From Dyella sp. ASV24 (GTDB lineage: Bacteria > Pseudomonadota > Gammaproteobacteria > Xanthomonadales > Rhodanobacteraceae), in assembly GCF_016428905.1 (NCBI RefSeq), contig NZ_JAELTQ010000011.1, positions 1 through 64,000 on the forward strand: a DNA stretch of 64,000 nt, read 5' to 3'. A program made the translations under genes and the position numbers. Of the stretch, positions 35,070 to 44,631 are shown one piece after another. The number at the start of each line of letters is the position of its first letter. Positions within the stretch are counted from its first letter, which is position 1. The notes beneath the pieces were generated by a model. It saw only the letters and a list, made by a program, of their open reading frames with translations, ran no database searches and was not told the DNA's origin.

Positions 35070-35738
35070 ATGGTCAAGAAGGAATTTCGGGCGGAGCCCT
35101 TTCCGCTGGCATACGAGGCAAAGTCAACGGCACTGGTGATGATCGACATGCAGCGCGATTTCGTCGAGCCAGGTGGTTTTGGCGAAGCGCTCGGCAACGA
35201 CGTATCGCTCGTGCGCAGTGCGATCAAACCGTGCGAGAAAGTGTTGGCTGAAGCGCGCAAGGCCGGCCTGCTGGTGATCCATACGCGCGAAGGTCATCGC
35301 GCCGACCTGGCCGACTGTCCGCCTGCCAAGCTCACTCGCGGTGGCAAGACGTTTATCGGCACGAATGGTCCTATGGGTCGCATCCTGGTGCGTGGCTCAA
35401 AAGGGCACGATCTGATCCCCGAACTGTATCCGATCGCTGGCGAGCCGGTCGTCGATAAGCCAGGCAAGGGTGCGTTCTATCAAACCGACTTGCATCTTCT
35501 GTTGCAGAACGCCGGTATCAAGACGCTGATCGTGTGCGGTGTCACCACGGAAGTGTGCGTTACCACCACGGTGCGGGAAGCCAACGATCGCGGCTATGAG
35601 TGCATCGTGCCTTCCGACTGTGTCGGCTCTTACTTTCCTGAGTTCCAGCAGGCCGCATTGGCCATGATCAAGGCTCAGGGCGCGATCTTTGGCTGGGTAA
35701 GCGATTCGAACGCCATTGTCGAAGGCTTGAAAGGCTGA
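35070..35738 (+). CDS. Isochorismatase-fold cysteine amidohydrolase, biuret-hydrolase-like
   Basis: A 222-residue isochorismatase-superfamily hydrolase. The catalytic triad is visible: Asp26 in VMIDMQRDF, Lys130 in VVDKPGKGAF and Cys163 in GVTTEVCV. The segments HTREGHRADLAD, GRILVRGSKGHDLIPELYPI and REANDRGYECIVPSDC are, as I recall them, close to biuret hydrolase (BiuH) and triuret hydrolase rather than to isochorismatase or nicotinamidase. Expected reaction: removal of ammonia from a terminal ureide amide. Biuret, triuret or another carbamoyl amide are candidates; the sequence cannot decide. First gene of the operon, 12 bases before the DUF2877 gene. Confidence 0.8.
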   Translation: MVKKEFRAEPFPLAYEAKSTALVMIDMQRDFVEPGGFGEALGNDVSLVRSAIKPCEKVLAEARKAGLLVIHTREGHRADLADCPPAKLTRGGKTFIGTNGPMGRILVRGSKGHDLIPELYPIAGEPVVDKPGKGAFYQTDLHLLLQNAGIKTLIVCGVTTEVCVTTTVREANDRGYECIVPSDCVGSYFPEFQQAALAMIKAQGAIFGWVSDSNAIVEGLKG

Positions 35739-35750
35739 GTGGAGCAGCCC

Positions 35751-36668
35751 ATGGAGAAGCACAACTTACCGGCGCTCTCCGTGGGCTATCTGGCGAGCGC
35801 GATGCTGCAACAGGCATCCCTGTTCGAAGTGCATAGCCAGTTTGAGAACGCACTTAATCTCGTCACGGCGGATGGCGAGATGATGACCCTGACGGGAATG
35901 CGCGCGCCGGGCTTTCCAACAACCATCCGTGTGTGCACGCCGACGTGGTGGGACTGGCGCCTTGGTGGTTCAGTCCGACAAGTGGGCCACGTATCGAGTG
36001 TTCTTCATCACGCTGCGTGGTCAGTCGATCTTAGCCGCGCTGAATGCTGGGTGCCTGATGGTCGGGATATCGAACCGTCCTGGGCGGCGTTGTCGACGGA
36101 GAGGTTGAGTGTATTGGAGACGGCGCTCCGCGATCATCTTGATCAAACGGGCGCGCGAAGTGCGCTATGCCTCTACGAGAACCACTCATCGGTGGCACTT
36201 ACACCGACGATCACGTGGCATGACGACGTTACCCAAATAGAAGCGCAGGTTGTGCGGCTGATCGGGTTCGGGTTCGGATTGACGCCCGATGGAGATGACT
36301 TCCTCCTGGGTTATATGGCAGCGCTCTCGCCATGGCGTCGGTATCTCGACATATCGGCTCACTTGCGCGAGGTGGGCGCCATCGTAAGACGGCACCTTCA
36401 TCGGACGACAGACATCAGTCGGCACTACTTGAAGCTCGCCACGGACGGCCACTTTTCTGAGCCAGTGTTGCAGCTCGCAGCAGCGATAGCAGGAGGAGAC
36501 AGCCATACCTCATTACAGCGACTGGCGGAGAACGTGCTGCGCTTTGGGGCTTCGTCGGGCGCGGACTGTATGGCCGGCATGGTGCATGGCTTGAAGAACG
36601 TGCGGAAGGCATTGGATGCGTATCCCTCGACGCCACGGATTACACGGACCAACGAACAGGCCGCTTAG
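35751..36668 (+). CDS. allH: DUF2877 protein, AllH/YlbF-like transcarbamylase subunit
   Basis: A 305-residue DUF2877 protein. E. coli AllH (formerly YlbF) of this family is, as I recall, one of three subunits of the oxamate transcarbamylase AllFGH. The family segment with the LIGFGFGLTPDGDDFLLGYM motif (Gly/Asp-rich, about residues 165-185) is present. ATG 35751 is preferred to GTG 35739 because GGAG lies 7 bases upstream. It stands in an operon with the other two subunits and a carbamate kinase, which supports this role. Confidence 0.78.
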   Translation: MEKHNLPALSVGYLASAMLQQASLFEVHSQFENALNLVTADGEMMTLTGMRAPGFPTTIRVCTPTWWDWRLGGSVRQVGHVSSVLHHAAWSVDLSRAECWVPDGRDIEPSWAALSTERLSVLETALRDHLDQTGARSALCLYENHSSVALTPTITWHDDVTQIEAQVVRLIGFGFGLTPDGDDFLLGYMAALSPWRRYLDISAHLREVGAIVRRHLHRTTDISRHYLKLATDGHFSEPVLQLAAAIAGGDSHTSLQRLAENVLRFGASSGADCMAGMVHGLKNVRKALDAYPSTPRITRTNEQAA

Positions 36669-36703
36669 GCGCGCATCCAGATCATCATGGAACGAACATT
36701 GAG

Positions 36704-38260
36704 ATGAACAGCAGTTTCAAAATCTTCAAAAACCTTTACCGGGATTCGGTGTCGCTTATGCAGATAAGCGCGCGCATCTGCAAGCTCGATGGTATCGATC
36801 GCGCGGCCGTGCTTATGGGTACCGAAACCAATCGCGAGCAATTGGCTGACGCGGGTTTTGGCAGCGACATCGATGCCGGACCCAATGATCTGATTGTGGC
36901 TGTGCGCGGAAACGATGATATCTGTGCCCGAGCGCTGGAAGAGGCCACCGAGCAGCTGAGCGCGCCTGTAGATAGTTCGGCGGACGGTGTTGTCAGAAAG
37001 CAAGTGCTGACTAGCCTGCAGATGGCCACCGAGCAATCGAGCGAAGCGAACATGGCATTGATCTCGGTGCCTGGCGATTACGCCGCGGCCGAAGCGATGA
37101 AGGCGCTCCGCTTGGGCATGCATGTGATGTTGTTCAGCGACAACGTCAGCCTTGCACAGGAGCGGTCCATCAAAATGCTGGCCCGTGACAATGACTTGAT
37201 CGTCATGGGGCCGGATTGCGGTACCGCCATCGTCAACGGCCTGCCGCTGGGGTTTGCCAACGTGGTGCGGCGCGGAGCGGTCGGCCTCGTCGCCGCATCC
37301 GGCACCGGTCTACAGGAGGTGACCTGCCGGATCCATCAGTTGGGCGAGGGCGTGTCGCAAGCGCTGGGAACTGGTGGGCACGATCTGCACGAGGAGATTG
37401 GCGGCATCTCGATGCTGTACGGCCTCGATGCGTTGATCGCGGACAAAGATACGCGTGTGATTGTGCTGGTATCCAAGCCGCCCGCACCGTCTGTGGCGAA
37501 GCAAATCCTTGCCCGTGCCCGCGCGGCAGGAAAGCCGGTGGTGATCCATTTCCTCGGTGCGCAGCCCGCCGATATCGAAGGGCGGGGCGTGGTGGCGGCA
37601 CCTACGTTGGCGGATGCCGGCAATATCGCGGTAGCACTGCTGCGCGGAGACGCCGTGCCAGCCTCGGAAGCCGTGCTTGCTGTTGCTGAGCAAGACATGC
37701 TGGACGTGCATTGCGCGAAGCTCCCTGCGCGCCGCCGTTTCGTGCGAGGCGTGTTCGCTGGAGGCACGTTCTGCTACGAGAGCCAATTGCTTTGCCAAAA
37801 ACAGGGCTTCCGTGGCTCCTCCAATACGCCAGTGAAAGGCAACGAGTTGCTGACTGATGTGTGGACGAGTATCGGCCACGCCTTTGTGGACCTGGGCGAT
37901 GACGTTTTCACGCGCGGACGCCCACATCCCATGATCGATCCTACGCTGCGCAACGAACGCATCGTGACCGAGTTGCAACAACCCGAAACGGCAGTTGTGC
38001 TGTTCGACGTGGTTCTCGGCTATGGAGCTGCCGACGCGCCCGCTACGGAGCTGGCGACGTTACTGCGGGAAACCTTATCACCCGATGACAGTACGGGATC
38101 GCCGCTCTTGATCGCCCACGTGTGCGGCACTGACGCTGATCCGCAGGATCGCGAGGCACAGATATCCGCCTTGCGTGACGCGGGCGTGCTCATTGCCGGG
38201 TGCAATGCGCAGGCGGCGAGCTGGGCGGCCTACGTCGCCAGCCTTCAGATGAACAAGTAA
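36704..38260 (+). CDS. fdrA: FdrA/AllF-like transcarbamylase subunit
   Basis: A 518-residue protein of the FdrA family, with succinyl-CoA-synthetase-like folds. Diagnostic segments are NDLIVMGPDCGTAIVNGLPL, GAVGLVAASGTGLQEVTCRI and ALGTGGHDLHEEIGGISML. In E. coli FdrA (AllF) works with AllG and AllH to transfer the carbamoyl group between oxalurate and phosphate. Length is normal. The gene is 35 bases after the DUF2877 gene and 13 bases before the DUF1116 gene. Confidence 0.85.
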   Translation: MNSSFKIFKNLYRDSVSLMQISARICKLDGIDRAAVLMGTETNREQLADAGFGSDIDAGPNDLIVAVRGNDDICARALEEATEQLSAPVDSSADGVVRKQVLTSLQMATEQSSEANMALISVPGDYAAAEAMKALRLGMHVMLFSDNVSLAQERSIKMLARDNDLIVMGPDCGTAIVNGLPLGFANVVRRGAVGLVAASGTGLQEVTCRIHQLGEGVSQALGTGGHDLHEEIGGISMLYGLDALIADKDTRVIVLVSKPPAPSVAKQILARARAAGKPVVIHFLGAQPADIEGRGVVAAPTLADAGNIAVALLRGDAVPASEAVLAVAEQDMLDVHCAKLPARRRFVRGVFAGGTFCYESQLLCQKQGFRGSSNTPVKGNELLTDVWTSIGHAFVDLGDDVFTRGRPHPMIDPTLRNERIVTELQQPETAVVLFDVVLGYGAADAPATELATLLRETLSPDDSTGSPLLIAHVCGTDADPQDREAQISALRDAGVLIAGCNAQAASWAAYVASLQMNK

Positions 38261-38273
38261 CGGAGCGTCACAG

Positions 38274-39701
38274 ATGAGCCATTTGTTTACTCAGCCGCTC
38301 AAGGTGATCAACTGCGGCCTGGAAAGTTTTGCGCGAAACCTCGCGCAAGCGGGCGGCGAGGTCGAAACACTGAGCTGGCAGCCGCCCGCGATGGGCGATA
38401 TACAGGCCGGCCTTGACCTCGCCTACTTGATGCAGCACCCGTTGGTCGAGCAGGCCAACAAGAACGCCTTTCAGCGGTATTTGGACGCACAGCCGACGTT
38501 GGTCGACGTGATGCCCGCCGCCGAAGCCATCCCGGAGATGGCCACTCGCAAACTCATCCTACACGCAGGGCCGCCTATTGCGTGGAACCGTATGTGTGGT
38601 CCGGTGCAGGGAGCCATCGTGGGCGCGATCCTGTTCGAGGGTTGGGCGGCCAGCCATGAAGAAGCCGAACGGCTGATCATGGACGGCGTCATCGATATGG
38701 AGCCTTGTCACCACTATCACGCCGTAGGTCCCATGGCTGGGATCATCAGTCCGTCAACGCCCCTGTTCGTGGTGGAGAACCGGGCAAGTGGCAGGCGTGC
38801 TTATACCAACATGAACGAAGGCCTCGGCAAGGTGCTGCGTTTTGGCGCCAACAGCGAGGAGGTCATCGAGCGCCTGCGTTGGATGCGTAACGAATTGGCG
38901 CCTACGCTGAGGGTTGCGCTGCGCTTCTCCGGTGACGTGGAGTTGAAGCCGCTCATGGCGCAGGCGCTGCACATGGGCGATGAGATTCACAACCGCAACG
39001 CAGCGGCTACCGGCTTGCTGATGAAGCGCCTGGTGCCCGCGCTACTGGGTAGCGGACAACCACTCGACGAACTGCGTCGTGTGATTGCCTTCATTCTTGG
39101 CAACGATCACTTCTTCCTCAATCTGTCCATGGCTGCTTGCAAGGTCATGATGGATGCCGCTGCGCATGAGCCTTTCAGTTCGTTGGTCACCGTGATGGCG
39201 CGCAATGGCGTGGAGTTCGGCGTGCGCCTGTCGGGTACGGGTAACCGTTGGTTCACGGCCAAGGCGAATCCGGTGGAAGGTTTGTTCTTCCCCGGCTATG
39301 GCGTAGACGACGCAGCCGCTGATCTCGGCGACAGCGCAATCACTGAAACTGCGGGTGTCGGCGGCTTCGCCATGGCCTCCTCGCCAGCCATTGTGAAGTT
39401 CGTGGGCGGCACACCGGACGACGCCATCGCCAATAGCCGGCGCATGCAGTTCATCACGCTCGGCGGCAATGGCGCGTTCACGCTGCCTTCCATGAATTTC
39501 GCGCCCACCGCGGCGGGTATCGACGCGCGCAAGGTGATCGATCGAAACATTCTTCCCGTCATCAATACGGGTATTGCCCATCGGCAAGCGGGTATCGGAC
39601 AGATCGGTGCGGGCATCACCACCGCACCCATGCCGTGCTTTGTCGAAGCCATTCGCGCGCTGGCCGAGGAGGTTCGCCGCCATACAGGAGAAACATCATG
39701 A
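38274..39701 (+). CDS. allG: DUF1116 protein, AllG/YlbE/YahG-like transcarbamylase subunit
   Basis: A 475-residue DUF1116 protein. Conserved blocks include ILHAGPPIAWNRMCGPVQGA, CHHYHAVGPMAGIISPSTPL, NEGLGKVLRFGANSEEVI and RLSGTGNRWFTAKANPVEGL. Homologues AllG (YlbE) and YahG occur in E. coli next to FdrA-type and carbamate kinase genes. Its stop overlaps the carbamate kinase ATG, so the two are probably made in a fixed ratio. Confidence 0.85.
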   Translation: MSHLFTQPLKVINCGLESFARNLAQAGGEVETLSWQPPAMGDIQAGLDLAYLMQHPLVEQANKNAFQRYLDAQPTLVDVMPAAEAIPEMATRKLILHAGPPIAWNRMCGPVQGAIVGAILFEGWAASHEEAERLIMDGVIDMEPCHHYHAVGPMAGIISPSTPLFVVENRASGRRAYTNMNEGLGKVLRFGANSEEVIERLRWMRNELAPTLRVALRFSGDVELKPLMAQALHMGDEIHNRNAAATGLLMKRLVPALLGSGQPLDELRRVIAFILGNDHFFLNLSMAACKVMMDAAAHEPFSSLVTVMARNGVEFGVRLSGTGNRWFTAKANPVEGLFFPGYGVDDAAADLGDSAITETAGVGGFAMASSPAIVKFVGGTPDDAIANSRRMQFITLGGNGAFTLPSMNFAPTAAGIDARKVIDRNILPVINTGIAHRQAGIGQIGAGITTAPMPCFVEAIRALAEEVRRHTGETS

Positions 39702-40660
39702 GGACCCGGCCGCTTGCCATCGTTGCCGTTGGCGGCAATGCACTGATTCGCGACAACGAACATCTGGCCATTCCAGACCAGTACGAGGCGGTGATCGAAA
39801 GCGCCGAGCATATCGCCGACATGGTCGAGGCGGGCTGGGATCTGGTGCTGACGCACGGCAATGGACCCCAGGTAGGTTTCATCCTGCGTCGTTCCGAGCT
39901 CGCCGCCGAAGAAGTGAGCCCAGTGCCGCTGGATTACGCTGTTGGCGATACGCAAGGCGCTATCGGCTACATGTTCCAGAAGGCGCTGGGCAATGAACTG
40001 CGCCGTCGTGGCATTCAAAAGCCGGTGGTGTCGATAGTCACACAGACCTGCGTCGACCCGGCGGATCCTGCATTTGCCCACCCGACCAAACCCATTGGCG
40101 CTTTTCTCGACGAGAGCACGGCGCGCGAGCGCCAGCAGAAACTCGGCTGGGCGTTGATGGAGGACGCGGGGCGCGGCTGGCGCCGCACGGTGGCGTCGCC
40201 CGAACCGCTCGAGGTAGTGGAGTCGCCGGTCATCGAAACCCTGCTATCTCAAGGCTGCATCGTGGTGGCCTGCGGTGGTGGTGGCATTCCGGTGGTGCGC
40301 AATGCGGCGGGCGAGCTACACGGTGTGGAAGCCGTGATCGACAAGGATCTTGCTTCCGCCCTGCTCGCACAACAGTTGCATGCGGATCTGTTGATGATTC
40401 CCACCGGCGTAGAGCAGGTGGCCGTGAACTTCGGCACGCCCGAACAGCGCTGGCTTGGTCACCTGTCTATCGCCGACGCCAATGAGCTGATCCGCCAGGG
40501 TCAGTTCGGCGCGGGCAGCATGCTGCCGAAGGTGGACGCCATTCTTCGCTTCGTGAAGCACAGCCAGAGTCAGGGCAAGAACGGCAAGGGCCTCATCACA
40601 AGCACGCCTGCCATCAAGCGCGCTTTGCTGCGCGAAACCGGAACGTGGATCTCCGCGTGA
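39698..40660 (+). CDS. arcC: Carbamate kinase (ArcC/AllK/YahI family)
   Basis: Carbamate kinase converts carbamoyl phosphate and ADP to ATP, CO2 and ammonia. The 320-residue product has the amino-acid kinase N-terminus VAVGGNALI, THGNGPQVGFILRRSELA, TQTCVDPADPAF, IVVACGGGGIPVV and VIDKDLASALLA. No ornithine carbamoyltransferase or arginine deiminase gene is nearby. The partner enzymes here are the AllFGH-like subunits, so it probably ends a ureide rather than an arginine pathway. The ATG at 39698 overlaps the previous stop. Confidence 0.9.
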   Translation: MRTRPLAIVAVGGNALIRDNEHLAIPDQYEAVIESAEHIADMVEAGWDLVLTHGNGPQVGFILRRSELAAEEVSPVPLDYAVGDTQGAIGYMFQKALGNELRRRGIQKPVVSIVTQTCVDPADPAFAHPTKPIGAFLDESTARERQQKLGWALMEDAGRGWRRTVASPEPLEVVESPVIETLLSQGCIVVACGGGGIPVVRNAAGELHGVEAVIDKDLASALLAQQLHADLLMIPTGVEQVAVNFGTPEQRWLGHLSIADANELIRQGQFGAGSMLPKVDAILRFVKHSQSQGKNGKGLITSTPAIKRALLRETGTWISA

Positions 40661-40670
40661 CGTAAATGTG

Positions 40671-40698
40671 CGTGGCGGCGTGGACCCACGCCGCCACG
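40671..40698 (+). other. Strong stem-loop between the carbamate kinase and AtzF-C genes
   Basis: Twelve base pairs (40671-40682 with 40687-40698, CGTGGCGGCGTG) around GACC lie in the 78-base gap. No T run follows. It may set differential expression or mRNA stability inside the operon, or act as a weak terminator. Confidence 0.45.
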
Positions 40699-40738
40699 TG
40701 CGCAAGAAAACCTCATACATCATAGGGAAGCGCTGGCA

Positions 40739-41128
40739 ATGACCACGACTCTACTCGCTGTGAACGGCACGCTCATGCGTGGACTGGAACTCAATCCGAA
40801 CATGCTTGCCGCGCGTGGCGTTTTTGTCCGCGAGGACAAGACCGATGCGCACTATCGCATTTGGACTATCAATGATCGCCATCCCGGCATGATCCGCGTG
40901 CTTGAGGGCGGCGTGCAGGTTGCCCTCGAGATATGGAGTCTCCCGATGGACTCGCTTGGTGCGCTGCTACTCAGCGAACCAGCAGGCCTGAGCATCGGCA
41001 AGGTCAAGCTGGCCAGTGGAGAGGAAGTACTCGGCGTGCTCGCCGAGCCCTGGTTGCTGGAAGGCCAGGACGAAATTTCCCAACACGGTGGCTGGCGCGG
41101 TTACACGGGTCACACATTCGCCGGCTGA
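40739..41128 (+). CDS. Stand-alone allophanate hydrolase C-terminal (AtzF-C) domain
   Basis: A 129-residue protein that corresponds to only the C-terminal domain of allophanate hydrolase (AtzF): LLAVNGTLMRGLELNPNML, YRIWTINDRHPGMIRV, GLSIGKVKLASGEEVLGVLA and GGWRGYTGHTF. The amidase domain with its Ser-Ser-Lys triad is absent, and the gene is complete with its own start. In fused enzymes this domain decarboxylates N-carboxycarbamate. A separate version implies a related decarboxylation or a binding role in this pathway. Confidence 0.82.
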   Translation: MTTTLLAVNGTLMRGLELNPNMLAARGVFVREDKTDAHYRIWTINDRHPGMIRVLEGGVQVALEIWSLPMDSLGALLLSEPAGLSIGKVKLASGEEVLGVLAEPWLLEGQDEISQHGGWRGYTGHTFAG

Positions 41129-41165
41129 TGCCGCGCCGAAGGATCGATTGCAAAGGAGTAACGGA

Positions 41166-42395
41166 ATGCGCAAGACCAACATCAACCTGGATACAGCGCC
41201 GTCGTATCGTATTGCGATGATTCTGCTGGGCATTGCCATCACGCCCGTGCTGCTCTCCTCGTCCAGCTTTGGCAGCAAGCTGAGCGGTTCGGCATTGTTG
41301 ACGGTGGTGACCATCGGTTGCCTCATTCTTTCAGTGCTGGCTGCGATCACCTTGTGTGTAGGCGAAAAGGCACGTCTGCCTACATCCGGCATCGTCAAAT
41401 ATCCCTTCGGTGAGAAGGGCGCCGTCGCCATCAACATATTGCTCGCCGTGAGCCTGTTCGGCTGGATCGCGGTGACCGCCAACATGTTCGGCCATACGAT
41501 GCATGATCTGCTCTCTCGCTATGGTGTCGGTGTGCCTGTGGGAGTGCTGGTGCCCATCGGTTGCGTGATCTTTGTGGCGTCCACGGCGTTCGGCTTTGCC
41601 GTGCTCGGTAAGATCGCGCAGGTGGCTGTGCCGGTCATCTCAGCCATGCTTTGCTATCTCGTGTACACGGCGTTCCATGGCGGTGCCTCGCCGCTGGGCG
41701 AGATGGAAGGCATGAGCACAGGCGTGGCGGTGTCCTCTGTGGTGGGCACCATTATCGTGCTGGTGACTACGCTGCCGGACTTTGGGTGTTTCGTGCATGA
41801 CCGCAAGCACGCGATCATGGCGGCGATCCTGACGTTCTCGGTGGCTTATCCGTTGCTGTTCTGGGCCGGCGCCATGCCGAGCGCCCTGACTGGCAAGGGC
41901 TCGCTGCTGGAAGCCATGGCGGTGTTCGGAGCGATTCTGCCCACGGCGCTATTGCTGGTCTTCGCCACGGTAACGGGCAATGGCGGCAATATGTTCCAGG
42001 GAACACTAGTGGTTTCCACCTTGCTGACGCGCTTCCCCAAGTGGCAGATCACGCTGGCTCTAGGCGTGCTGGCGGCGATCGTGGGCAGCATGGACATCAT
42101 GTCCTGGTTCATCCCCTTCTTGCTGTTCCTGGGGGTGGCCACGCCACCAGTCGCAGGTATCTATGTTGCCGACTACGTGATGTATCGCGGTCATGGCTAC
42201 GACCCCGCCGTACTCGTGAGCGGCCCGAAAGTGAGGGTGCTGACCTTCGTGGCATGGCTGATTGGCTCGTTGGTGGGTTTCGCAGCCATCAAGGGTGCGG
42301 TAACGATCACGTCCATCCCGTCGCTCGATTCGATCCTGGTGGCCAGCGTTTGCTACATCGTTCTCAGCCGGTTTGAGCGGAGACGTGGTCATTAA
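41166..42395 (+). CDS. CodB-like NCS1 permease
   Basis: A 409-residue inner-membrane transporter with about 12 hydrophobic segments, of the cytosine permease/NCS1 type (SSSSFGSKLSGSALLTVVTI, VTANMFGHTMHDLL, LVTTLPDFGCFVHDRKHAIM, SWFIPFLLFLGVATPPVAGI). AAAGGAG lies upstream of the ATG. No deaminase for cytosine is encoded beside it, so the cargo is more likely the pathway substrate, a small uncharged amide or ureide. Last operon gene before the regulator. Confidence 0.83.
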   Translation: MRKTNINLDTAPSYRIAMILLGIAITPVLLSSSSFGSKLSGSALLTVVTIGCLILSVLAAITLCVGEKARLPTSGIVKYPFGEKGAVAINILLAVSLFGWIAVTANMFGHTMHDLLSRYGVGVPVGVLVPIGCVIFVASTAFGFAVLGKIAQVAVPVISAMLCYLVYTAFHGGASPLGEMEGMSTGVAVSSVVGTIIVLVTTLPDFGCFVHDRKHAIMAAILTFSVAYPLLFWAGAMPSALTGKGSLLEAMAVFGAILPTALLLVFATVTGNGGNMFQGTLVVSTLLTRFPKWQITLALGVLAAIVGSMDIMSWFIPFLLFLGVATPPVAGIYVADYVMYRGHGYDPAVLVSGPKVRVLTFVAWLIGSLVGFAAIKGAVTITSIPSLDSILVASVCYIVLSRFERRRGH

Positions 42396-42503
42396 GCATC
42401 AGAGTTTTCTGAAACCCCCTTCAAACACCGTGTCACGCGGTCGCGGTCAATGCTTGGCTGTCGATGCGGTTGCTACGGTGAGGGGGAAGCAGGAGATCGA
42501 TCG

Positions 42504-43424
42504 ATGTTTACCTCAGATGAAAGCCTTCGTGTCGTTCGCATGGTGGCCAAATACCAGAGCATTACCCAGGCAGCGGAAAGGCTGCACAAGGTGCCCTCTG
42601 CCGTTAGCTATACCGTCAAGAAGCTGGAAGAGACATTTGGAGCGAAGCTCTTCATGCGTAAAGGCTGCTACATACAGCTCACGTCGGCTGGCGAGTATTT
42701 CATTCATCACAGCAAGGCGATTCTCGATGACCTGGAAGCGCTCAAGCGCAATGTCGCGATCGTCGATGCAGGTGTGGAGAACGAGGTGAGGGTCGCGGTG
42801 AACAACATCGTTCCTCAAGGGGCGCTGATCGATTTCGTTGAGGCCTTCGAGCAGACATTCCCTTCCTCGCAGCTGACCCTTAGTCAGGAGGTCTACAACG
42901 GTTGCTGGGATGCGCTGTATCAAGGTCGCGCGGATATGGTCATCGGCGCACCGCATGCGGTGCCTAGTGCCGATGGCGTGGTCAGCCATCCTTTGGGCCA
43001 CATGGAATGGGATTTCGTCGTGGGCGCTGCGCATCCCTTGGCGAACGCCGAACACGTATTGGAAAGCAGTGAATTGCGCCGTTATCCCGCTGTCTGCATT
43101 CGCGATACCTCAGTGAACTTGCAAGGTATGCAGGCGTGGTTGCTGGAAGGGCAGAAGCCGATCTTCGTTTCGGACTTTTCCACAGCAATCGCGCTGATTG
43201 CGCGCAACGTGGCGATCGGCTGCATTCCCCGGCACATGTACCTGGCGCACCGGGGCATTGCCCTGGTGAGGAAATCCATCGAGGAGCGTAAGCACGCCAC
43301 CCGCCTTTTCCTGGCGTATCGATCCGGTGGGATGGGCAAGGCACGGCGATGGAGTTTGGATTATCTCCGCGGCTCAGCGCGTAGTGAGTTGCTGTGCGGC
43401 ATCACTCCAGGTGTTTGCCACTAG
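42504..43424 (+). CDS. LysR-type transcriptional regulator
   Basis: A 306-residue LysR-family regulator with an N-terminal winged helix (SITQAAERLHKVPSAVSYTV, KKLEETFGAKLFMRKG) and a periplasmic-binding-like effector domain. YahB, a LysR protein, lies next to the comparable yahDEFGHI genes in E. coli. It is transcribed in the same direction as the operon, 108 bases after the permease, and could act at the dyad 34899-34925. Effector unknown. Confidence 0.88.
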   Translation: MFTSDESLRVVRMVAKYQSITQAAERLHKVPSAVSYTVKKLEETFGAKLFMRKGCYIQLTSAGEYFIHHSKAILDDLEALKRNVAIVDAGVENEVRVAVNNIVPQGALIDFVEAFEQTFPSSQLTLSQEVYNGCWDALYQGRADMVIGAPHAVPSADGVVSHPLGHMEWDFVVGAAHPLANAEHVLESSELRRYPAVCIRDTSVNLQGMQAWLLEGQKPIFVSDFSTAIALIARNVAIGCIPRHMYLAHRGIALVRKSIEERKHATRLFLAYRSGGMGKARRWSLDYLRGSARSELLCGITPGVCH

Positions 43425-43566
43425 CGCTCGATTTCGTATCGACAACTGAACTTTTACCCGGGCGGTGCACGCGGGAACCGTGATCACGACGATCGCGGAG
43501 GGCTTCGCTCGTCCATAAATCATGGTTTTCGGTGGACCCGCGCCGTTATCCAAAGGAGTGGATCTG

Positions 43567-44631
43567 ATGAAGCGGCATCCTTTTCTCGGTATGGCGAGCA
43601 GCGCGCTGCTGCTGGCGGCAGCCAGCATCAGCCCTGCGTGGGCGGCGCCCGAACTTCGGTTTTATGGCCTGGTCGACGTGTGGGCTGGCTCGCAGCGATT
43701 GCCTGGCGCGCGCAGCGAAGGACTGATCTCGGACGGTGGTATGTCCACCTCGTATCTTGGTGTCAGCGCCAGCGACGAATTTGCACCGGGCTACAAGGGC
43801 ATCGTGCAACTCGAGGGCTTTTTCCGCCCTACGGATGGCCAATGGGGGCGTTTCGATGGTGACCTTACGCTTGCGCGAAACGCCAATGCAGGTATCGAGT
43901 CGCCGTATGGAACGGTGCGCATCGGTCGAGTCACGTCGCCGCTGTTCGTGTCTACCATCCTGTTTAACCCGTTTGTCGATTCGTACGTGTTCTCGCCGAT
44001 CATCGCGCACACCTATCTGGGCATGGGCACTTACCCGCCGTATGACACGGATCAGGGTCTGATCGGTGATTCGGGTTGGAGTCGCGCCCTGCAGTACGAA
44101 TCGCCCGACATGCATGGCTTGACTGTTAACGTGACCTACGGAGCATCCGACTCGAGCGAGCACAACAGCGCCAAGAAGGTCGGTGGCCGGGTGATGTACG
44201 CCAGCGGCGCATTTGCCGCGACGGCGGGCTATCAGTACCTGAGTTACAACAGTTCGGCCGGCGACCTGGATCAACTCATGCCGGGCATGACGAGCCAGAG
44301 CACGGGGTTATTGGGCGCCTCCTATGACTTCAAGGTGGCAAAGCTGTTTGCGCAGTACCTGTTTACAGACAACCACCGCAACGGCGGCAACTGGAAGGTC
44401 AACACGTCACAGCTTGGTGTGTCGGTGCCGATCGGCAAAGGCTCTGCGCTGGCAGCGTACGCGTACTCGCGCGACTCCGGTGGCATGCACCAGACACGCA
44501 ATACATGGTCGCTTGGCTACGACTATCCGTTCAACAAGTACATCGATGCGTATGTTGCCTACATGCGTGATGAGATCAGCGATCTGTCAGGCGGTTATAC
44601 GGTGGGTGCCGGTCTGCGTTTGTCGTTCTGA
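43567..44631 (+). CDS. Gram-negative general porin
   Basis: A 354-residue outer-membrane porin: signal peptide at residues 1-26 (ends PAWA), first strand ELRFYGLVDVWAG, the porin segment GTVRIGRVTSPLFV, and a C-terminal strand ending in Phe (GAGLRLSF) as needed for BAM insertion. AAAGGAG precedes the ATG at 43567. Its place behind the ureide operon suggests it supplies substrate across the outer membrane, but it may have its own promoter in the 142-base gap. Confidence 0.85.
   Translation: MKRHPFLGMASSALLLAAASISPAWAAPELRFYGLVDVWAGSQRLPGARSEGLISDGGMSTSYLGVSASDEFAPGYKGIVQLEGFFRPTDGQWGRFDGDLTLARNANAGIESPYGTVRIGRVTSPLFVSTILFNPFVDSYVFSPIIAHTYLGMGTYPPYDTDQGLIGDSGWSRALQYESPDMHGLTVNVTYGASDSSEHNSAKKVGGRVMYASGAFAATAGYQYLSYNSSAGDLDQLMPGMTSQSTGLLGASYDFKVAKLFAQYLFTDNHRNGGNWKVNTSQLGVSVPIGKGSALAAYAYSRDSGGMHQTRNTWSLGYDYPFNKYIDAYVAYMRDEISDLSGGYTVGAGLRLSF

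Follow-up and report, generated by a model that had tools for sequence, protein, structure and literature searches.

A candidate triuret operon with a phosphorolytic back end in Dyella sp. ASV24, shared with E. coli

The DNA analyzed here is a stretch of 64,000 nucleotides from Dyella sp. ASV24 (contig NZ_JAELTQ010000011.1, positions 1 to 64,000, hereafter the window). Between positions 35070 and 44631 it carries nine genes, encoding a cysteine hydrolase (HYD), the three subunits of an AllFGH-type transcarbamylase, a carbamate kinase, a free AH_C domain, a permease, a LysR regulator and a porin. We consider the chances about even that these genes form a triuret operon complete in itself, the back end of which works by phosphorolysis. 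With a confidence slightly short of even, we further propose that the AllFGH of this operon, which belongs to a group of its own, phosphorolyses biuret or carboxybiuret, that polyureides would thereby supply the cell with both ATP and nitrogen, and that this chemistry replaces the BiuH-AtzF branch of the known pathway in a single cassette, found also on E. coli plasmids. The genes are as follows.

35070..35738, + strand: HYD, TrtA-type isochorismatase-like cysteine hydrolase, 222 amino acids (Pfam isochorismatase, 161.8 bits)
35751..36668, + strand: AllH (DUF2877), transcarbamylase subunit (Pfam AllH, 86.5 bits, cut-off 25)
36704..38260, + strand: AllF (FdrA-like), transcarbamylase subunit (NCBIfam FdrA, 482.5 bits, cut-off 433; Pfam Ligase_CoA, 114.3 bits, and CoA_binding, 37.8 bits)
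38274..39701, + strand: AllG (DUF1116), transcarbamylase subunit (Pfam AllG, 316.5 bits; homologue structure 3CLQ)
39698..40660, + strand: carbamate kinase (NCBIfam PRK12352, 380.5 bits, cut-off 266; Pfam AA_kinase, 73.2 bits)
40739..41128, + strand: free AH_C domain (AtzF C-terminal domain alone), 129 amino acids (Pfam AH_C, 129.6 bits)
41166..42395, + strand: CodB-like NCS1 permease, proposed importer (Pfam Transp_cyt_pur, 50.1 bits; NCBIfam CodB, 147 bits, below its cut-off of 326)
42504..43424, + strand: LysR regulator (Pfam LysR_substrate and HTH_1; NCBIfam PunR, 258.5 bits, cut-off 345, and AllS, 211.2 bits, cut-off 372)
43522..44631, + strand: Gram-negative porin (Pfam Porin_4, 143.8 bits)

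From gene content, clades, residues and co-occurrence, all of which were observed directly, we infer substrates for a putative pathway. Triuret would be imported by the NCS1 permease, and HYD, judged from its residues, phylogeny and context, would cleave a terminal amide to yield carboxybiuret and NH3. The C-domain of AtzF is the decarboxylase of allophanate hydrolase, a role on which our literature search returned nothing to the point; with that role and its position in the operon, AH_C would convert the unstable N-carboxy product carboxybiuret to biuret and CO2. AllFGH would then split biuret with phosphate (Pi) into carbamoyl phosphate and urea, and carbamate kinase, by its family function, would turn carbamoyl phosphate and ADP into ATP and carbamate, the latter falling apart into NH3 and CO2. 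The net result would be 2 NH3, 2 CO2, urea and 1 ATP from one triuret, with AllFGH and carbamate kinase taking the place of BiuH and AtzF downstream of the triuret hydrolase. In a variant with the same net, the substrate of AllFGH would be carboxybiuret, which is closely analogous to oxalurate, and the products would be carbamoyl phosphate and allophanate; the allophanate would then be taken by AH_C, or by AtzF in some relatives. Decarboxylation of carboxybiuret ahead of AllFGH is the simpler job for AH_C of the two.

The identity of the hydrolase carries the first step. The best solved relative of HYD was TrtA (6XIX, 256.7 bits, 57% identity), and the best BiuH chains scored 235.8 and 229.6 bits. 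According to the report on TrtA (PMC7948467), the consensus sequences of TrtA and BiuH differ at six positions, which are F35, N41, A134, E160, Y187 and I205 in TrtA; the BiuH letters are Y35, Y41, S134, D160, T187 and V205. HYD of the window had the TrtA letter at six of six positions and the BiuH letter at none. All six TrtA letters were present in 96 of 100 members of the HYD clade and in 12 of 15 TrtA, and all six BiuH letters in 23 of 26 BiuH. Within the HYD clade N41, E160 and Y187 were found in 100 of 100 sequences, F35 and I205 in 99 and A134 in 97. The window HYD also retains the catalytic D24, K129 and C162 and the substrate contacts E72, K132 and Q202, and across the clade the triuret-contacting D24, F29, E72, K132, Q202 and E160 were conserved in 99 or 100 of 100 members. 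An IQ-TREE phylogeny of 146 sequences (100 HYD, 15 TrtA, 26 BiuH, 3 BiuH-like and 2 distant outgroup sequences) joined HYD with TrtA at 91.8/84, with HYD itself at 92/79 and TrtA at 99.8/100, and placed BiuH apart at 99.5/100. As judged by these residues and this tree, HYD is TrtA-type rather than BiuH-type, and a BiuH identity, also considered, was rejected on the same grounds. In one outlying hydrolase, from Caballeronia sp. SEWSISQ10-4 2 (L073:10001-11598), the catalytic Cys is replaced by Ser; this protein also deviates at discriminating positions 35 and 205, AllH is the sole operon gene adjoining it, and it gives the impression of a decayed or repurposed copy.

An earlier note on this DNA had taken the hydrolase for a BiuH-like enzyme that releases allophanate from biuret, with AllFGH splitting allophanate and Pi into carbamoyl phosphate and carbamate. 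BiuH is indeed the top NCBIfam model for HYD (269.5 bits, under its cut-off of 370), and HYD is 49-50% identical to three BiuH. However, the six discriminating residues are TrtA-type and the clade joins TrtA, 11 of the 23 HYD genomes already have a BiuH, and the free AH_C would be left without an obvious job, so that this proposal now seems quite improbable. What stood of the note was its broader statement of a ureide operon with a phosphorolytic type of back end, since AllFGH and carbamate kinase are present and phosphorolysis by such a system is known in E. coli K-12.

The distribution of HYD relative to TrtA also spoke for the triuret reading. When an evenly drawn sample of 398 genomes of the phylum was searched with HYD, 42 matched at E 1e-40 (at most 7 candidates scored per genome; neighboring genes classed by best probe, and BiuH called at at least 60% identity to the probe). 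HYD was found in 23 genomes, TrtA in 12 and both in none. Among the 25 genomes with BiuH, 12 had TrtA, 11 had HYD and 2 had neither, so that 23 of 25 had exactly one of them; if the two were independent, the absence of overlap among these 25 would have p = 1.7e-5, a figure that ignores kinship and comes from hand-compiled lists. In two loci (L095 and L184) HYD adjoins BiuH, AtzF and a BMP transporter, as TrtA does elsewhere. AllG and AH_C both adjoin HYD in 5 of the 23 genomes (the window, G391, G397, G400 and G461), and neither does in the other 18. No AllG adjoins TrtA in any of the 12 TrtA genomes, one of which (G336) has a divergent AllG elsewhere. In four loci (L182, L184, L186 and L187) HYD lies near AtzE-family genes, above cut-off in all four, and near HpxZ/AtzH-like genes, for which the model was checked in L182 only. 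Relatives of AtzE and HpxZ/AtzH also serve oxalurate pathways, and the clue given by these neighbors is therefore not exclusive. AtzE of Pseudomonas ADP acts on carboxybiuret (PMC6219798).

The company that HYD keeps was also examined in the named loci, which are the best 80 of 298 relatives and are therefore biased to close copies of the operon. Pooling gave 99 distinct HYD loci, 77 from the named set together with E. coli NGF1 and 22 from the sample, with neighbors counted within 9 kb. AllG was present in 68 of them, AllF in 68, carbamate kinase in 62, AH_C without an AtzF amidase match in 60, a CodB-like permease in 53, another probable permease in 36, full AtzF in 8 and BiuH in 4. The 77 window-like loci had AllG in 65 and AllG with AH_C in 56, and the 22 sample loci, after duplicate removal, had AllG in 3 and both in 3. 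Of the 68 HYD loci with AllG, 59 contained AH_C, three full AtzF (L085, L089 and L091) and one BiuH (L089). In comparison, 14 TrtA loci showed BiuH in all 14 and full AtzF in 10, with no AllG and no lone AH_C. Among the 31 HYD loci without AllG, 22 carried a probable permease of about 515 amino acids with 11-12 hydrophobic stretches, which gave no Pfam match in three copies and no NCBIfam match in one. Several loci (L092, L099, L102, L137, L139, L181, L189, L193 and others) combine HYD and this permease and have no AllG, AtzF or BiuH within 9 kb.

The free AH_C domain lacks the amidase domain of full AtzF. Its nearest solved chain was 5C5Z (209 bits), which is identical but for one residue to AH_C of the E. 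coli operon and which we take to be the c4763 product. AH_C shares a core with the AtzF C-domain: at 17 positions the letter of the window protein recurs in 95% or more of 66 AH_C rows and in 85% or more of 20 rows of the AtzF C-domain. Four conserved positions differ.

The transcarbamylase was compared through its AllG subunit, using a FastTree phylogeny of 67 HYD-linked, 34 allantoin-type and 9 Yah-type sequences, the labels of which were fixed before the tree from the best probe and from whether the locus contains HYD (L171, L163 and L169 were set aside). Each group was monophyletic, with support of 0.96, 1.0 and 0.90, respectively, and AllG of the window did not group with allantoin-linked AllG. 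AllF also split into these three groups, the HYD-linked one being weakly supported (0.68). AllG positions 277, 279, 285 and 288 read N, H, S and A in 66 or 67 of the 67 HYD-linked sequences, T, Q, A and Y in 34 of 34 of the allantoin group, and S, Y, W, then M or C in 8 of 9 of the Yah type. Three AllG in HYD loci were Yah-type by probe. Two of them, in L033 and L035, are second copies and show the Yah letters. The third, in L082, was Yah-type in the tree and has N277, H279, S285 and A288, with HYD and AH_C nearby; in this one case the letters track the neighbors, not the tree. In AllF, Arg 104 and 265 of the allantoin type appeared to be missing when 4 sequences were compared, and with 34 sequences only 265 stays class-specific. 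The Yah module itself, yahE-yahF-yahG-yahI-yahJ, lies at L199:2281-9508 in E. coli K-12 and has relatives in L164-L168, four of which carry a relative (38%) of the permease of about 515 amino acids.

These groups bear on the possibility that the operon serves oxalurate, with AllFGH acting as in K-12, HYD being an oxamate amidohydrolase (oxamate to oxalate and NH3) and oxalurate arriving preformed. K-12 AllFGH does perform the oxalurate reaction (PMC11326118), and oxaluric acid is reported to form from uric acid via parabanic acid (PMC5703782). Yet HYD-linked AllG (67 sequences, 0.96) stands apart from the allantoin type (34 sequences, 1.0) with different letters at the four near-fixed positions, AH_C at 59 of 68 loci with HYD and AllG would be unexplained, HYD retains the triuret contacts and elsewhere partners BiuH, AtzE and AtzF, and the Dyella genome has no Ldh_2 protein. 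We therefore regard an oxalurate operon as unlikely.

The own genome of Dyella sp. ASV24, a draft assembly in 635 contigs with a completeness rating of 100%, fits the proposal of a triuret operon in several respects. It contains one AllG and one HYD-type hydrolase at E 1e-40. No AH_C besides the operon copy was found in this genome, and therefore no AtzF, and the hydrolase search at the same threshold found no BiuH. With no hydrolytic exit found there for biuret or allophanate, AllFGH and carbamate kinase would be the visible continuation. AllD belongs to the Ldh_2 family, and the search for Ldh_2 proteins in the genome found none, which extends the earlier note's statement, itself upheld, that no allantoin gene adjoins the operon. 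The genome gave a single PF02682 match, which was not accepted as a urea carboxylase since other proteins carry this domain too. A Dyella silvae contig carries a hydrolase that is 90% identical. The operon is patchy: of 20 listed genomes from the same genus 2 have AllG, as do 2 among the 148 relatives that were searched. Breadth beyond Pseudomonadota is based on a few contigs of metagenome-assembled genomes. The records titled Chryseobacterium sp. 18061 and Citrobacter sp. 18056 (L028 and L029) agree in match identity of the operon and in locus positions, and the Chryseobacterium one is probably a mislabelled or contaminated assembly.

A number of observations weigh against the triuret operon as proposed. 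HYD forms its own clade, sister to TrtA and not nested inside it, and the support for HYD (92/79) and for HYD with TrtA (91.8/84) is moderate. The exclusivity of HYD and TrtA takes no account of ancestry, AllG is common next to HYD only among loci picked for their likeness to the window (65 of 77), and the association with AllG in the sample (5 of 23 HYD genomes vs 0 of 12 TrtA genomes) involves too few genomes to serve as sole proof. Six of the 68 loci with HYD and AllG lack both AH_C and AtzF. One locus (L089:2628-14536, on a metagenome-assembled contig titled Ferrithrix thermotolerans) carries a BMP transporter, BiuH, AtzF, a TrtA-type hydrolase and AllFGH together, and phosphorolysis looks redundant there beside BiuH and AtzF. 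L085 and L091, which are much alike and count as about one case, have AtzF and no BiuH, which is a better fit to the carboxybiuret variant. No urease alpha was found in the Dyella genome, where urea looks like a dead end. As for the enzymes, the characterized substrates of AllFGH are oxalurate and oxamate (PMC11326118). According to a paper on another transcarbamylase (PMC4016543), the carbamoyltransferase equilibrium lies strongly on the side of carbamoylation, and phosphorolysis would accordingly require removal of carbamoyl phosphate. The same paper describes a transcarbamylase of another family that phosphorolyses allantoate. Finally, c4763, called an AtzF homologue, is stated to have been shown active in urea breakdown (PMC7558591).

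That HYD is a clade of its own next to TrtA would also be expected if the same chemistry were directed at another linear ureide of three units, such as a substituted biuret, with triuret as a side substrate. In agreement with this, the transporter varies by lineage, 53 of the 99 loci having a CodB-like one and 36 a different probable permease. On the other hand, the triuret contacts checked were conserved in 99 or 100 of 100 sequences and characterized TrtA is highly specific (PMC7948467), and we assign the substituted-ureide explanation a low probability.

The triuret operon proposed here resembles, and departs from, several described systems. In the TrtA-BiuH-AtzF pathway of Herbaspirillum and Rhizobium (PMC7948467) the active-site residues are of the same TrtA type and carboxybiuret is likewise the likely first product, whereas the window operon has AllFGH, carbamate kinase and a free AH_C instead, with neither BiuH nor AtzF found in the genome. 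Carboxybiuret decays spontaneously with a half-life of about 20 min (PMC7948467). E. coli K-12 allFGHK (PMC11326118) has the same three subunits and carbamate kinase, but the window differs in its AllG group, in having no adjoining allantoin genes and in its front of triuret-type hydrolase and AH_C. The yahEFG-yahI-yahJ genes of K-12 likewise combine an AllFGH and carbamate kinase back end, with a different AllG group and the amidohydrolase YahJ adjoining. In contigs of comammox bacteria and ammonia-oxidizing archaea (PMC12625717), likened here by description and not by sequence, ureide hydrolase genes lie next to allFGHK as in the window; these have biuH, and comammox also AtzF and a putative trtA, and the paper treats biuret and oxalurate as separate pathways in nitrifiers.

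A close counterpart was found in E. coli. The commensal strain NGF1 has HYD, DUF2877, FdrA, DUF1116, carbamate kinase, AH_C, permease and LysR in window order, and the commensal M-17 also has the operon. Chance does not account for this recurrence, as the eight-gene block, counted as present when at least 80% of the query was covered, occurred in 1543 of 5426 complete E. coli genomes (~28%). Of its 1618 places in these, 129 were on plasmids, and 81 of 72,556 PLSDB plasmid records contained it. The whole cassette lies, for example, at L244:9501-17679 on an E. coli plasmid of type IncFIC, which is conjugative, close to replication and integrase genes. The block travels as a unit, and such mobility suggests a self-complete pathway.

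This block has been tabulated before. The same eight genes in the same order, with no porin behind LysR, were listed in E. coli BEN2908 in GR 29, the tkt1 island, which was tied to extra-intestinal strains, and were read as Rut-like plus FdrA with a suggested Rut-like role in nitrogen supply (PMC12928451). Biuret, triuret and allophanate are absent from the available main text of that paper. The pyrimidine-type reading was suggested from RutB-like and CodB-like annotation, but HYD scored 112.3 bits with the RutB model against a cut-off of 377.95, RutB chains gave about 100 bits or less vs 257 for TrtA, and the names of the operon genes include no other rut gene, which makes a Rut-like route very improbable indeed. 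Our literature search, with most subscription papers outside its coverage, returned no paper in which biuret, carboxybiuret or triuret is proposed to be phosphorolysed. The earlier note's remark that no described pathway has this set thus holds for the pathway in searchable papers, and fails for the gene set.

The remaining features of the window operon agree with the gene list. The Pfam matches of all nine gene products exceeded curated cut-offs, and the carbamate kinase scored 354.2 bits with the NCBIfam arcC equivalog model, slightly below its cut-off of 358.25. Seven tightly spaced genes followed by LysR and a porin, as first noticed from the letters alone, were thus confirmed at the coordinates above. 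The intergenic gaps from HYD to AllG are 12, 35 and 13 bp, the three transcarbamylase subunit genes are all adjacent, the AllG and carbamate kinase genes overlap by 4 bp and the AH_C gene follows 78 bp further on. ATG start codons were checked at 39698 (kinase), 41166 (CodB-like permease) and 42504 (LysR). A promoter scan found 0, compared with 3.3 in shuffled sequences, and a terminator scan found 7, compared with 7.7. The porin is outside the conserved core, with a similar porin in 2 of 80 named loci, and is probably the outer-membrane entry route.

Triuret is linked to uric acid oxidation. It is present in human urine and in urea fertilizer (PMC7948467), and soil and urinary habitats could thus both supply it. 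Judging from its genes, the block shared with E. coli probably lets bacteria import triuret, free its nitrogen and conserve one bond as ATP. If this is true, it would mean an energy-conserving breakdown of biuret and triuret, would give a function to an operon present in about 28% of complete E. coli genomes, and would make AllFGH with carbamate kinase a back end common to several ureide routes, those of allantoin, Yah and triuret among them.

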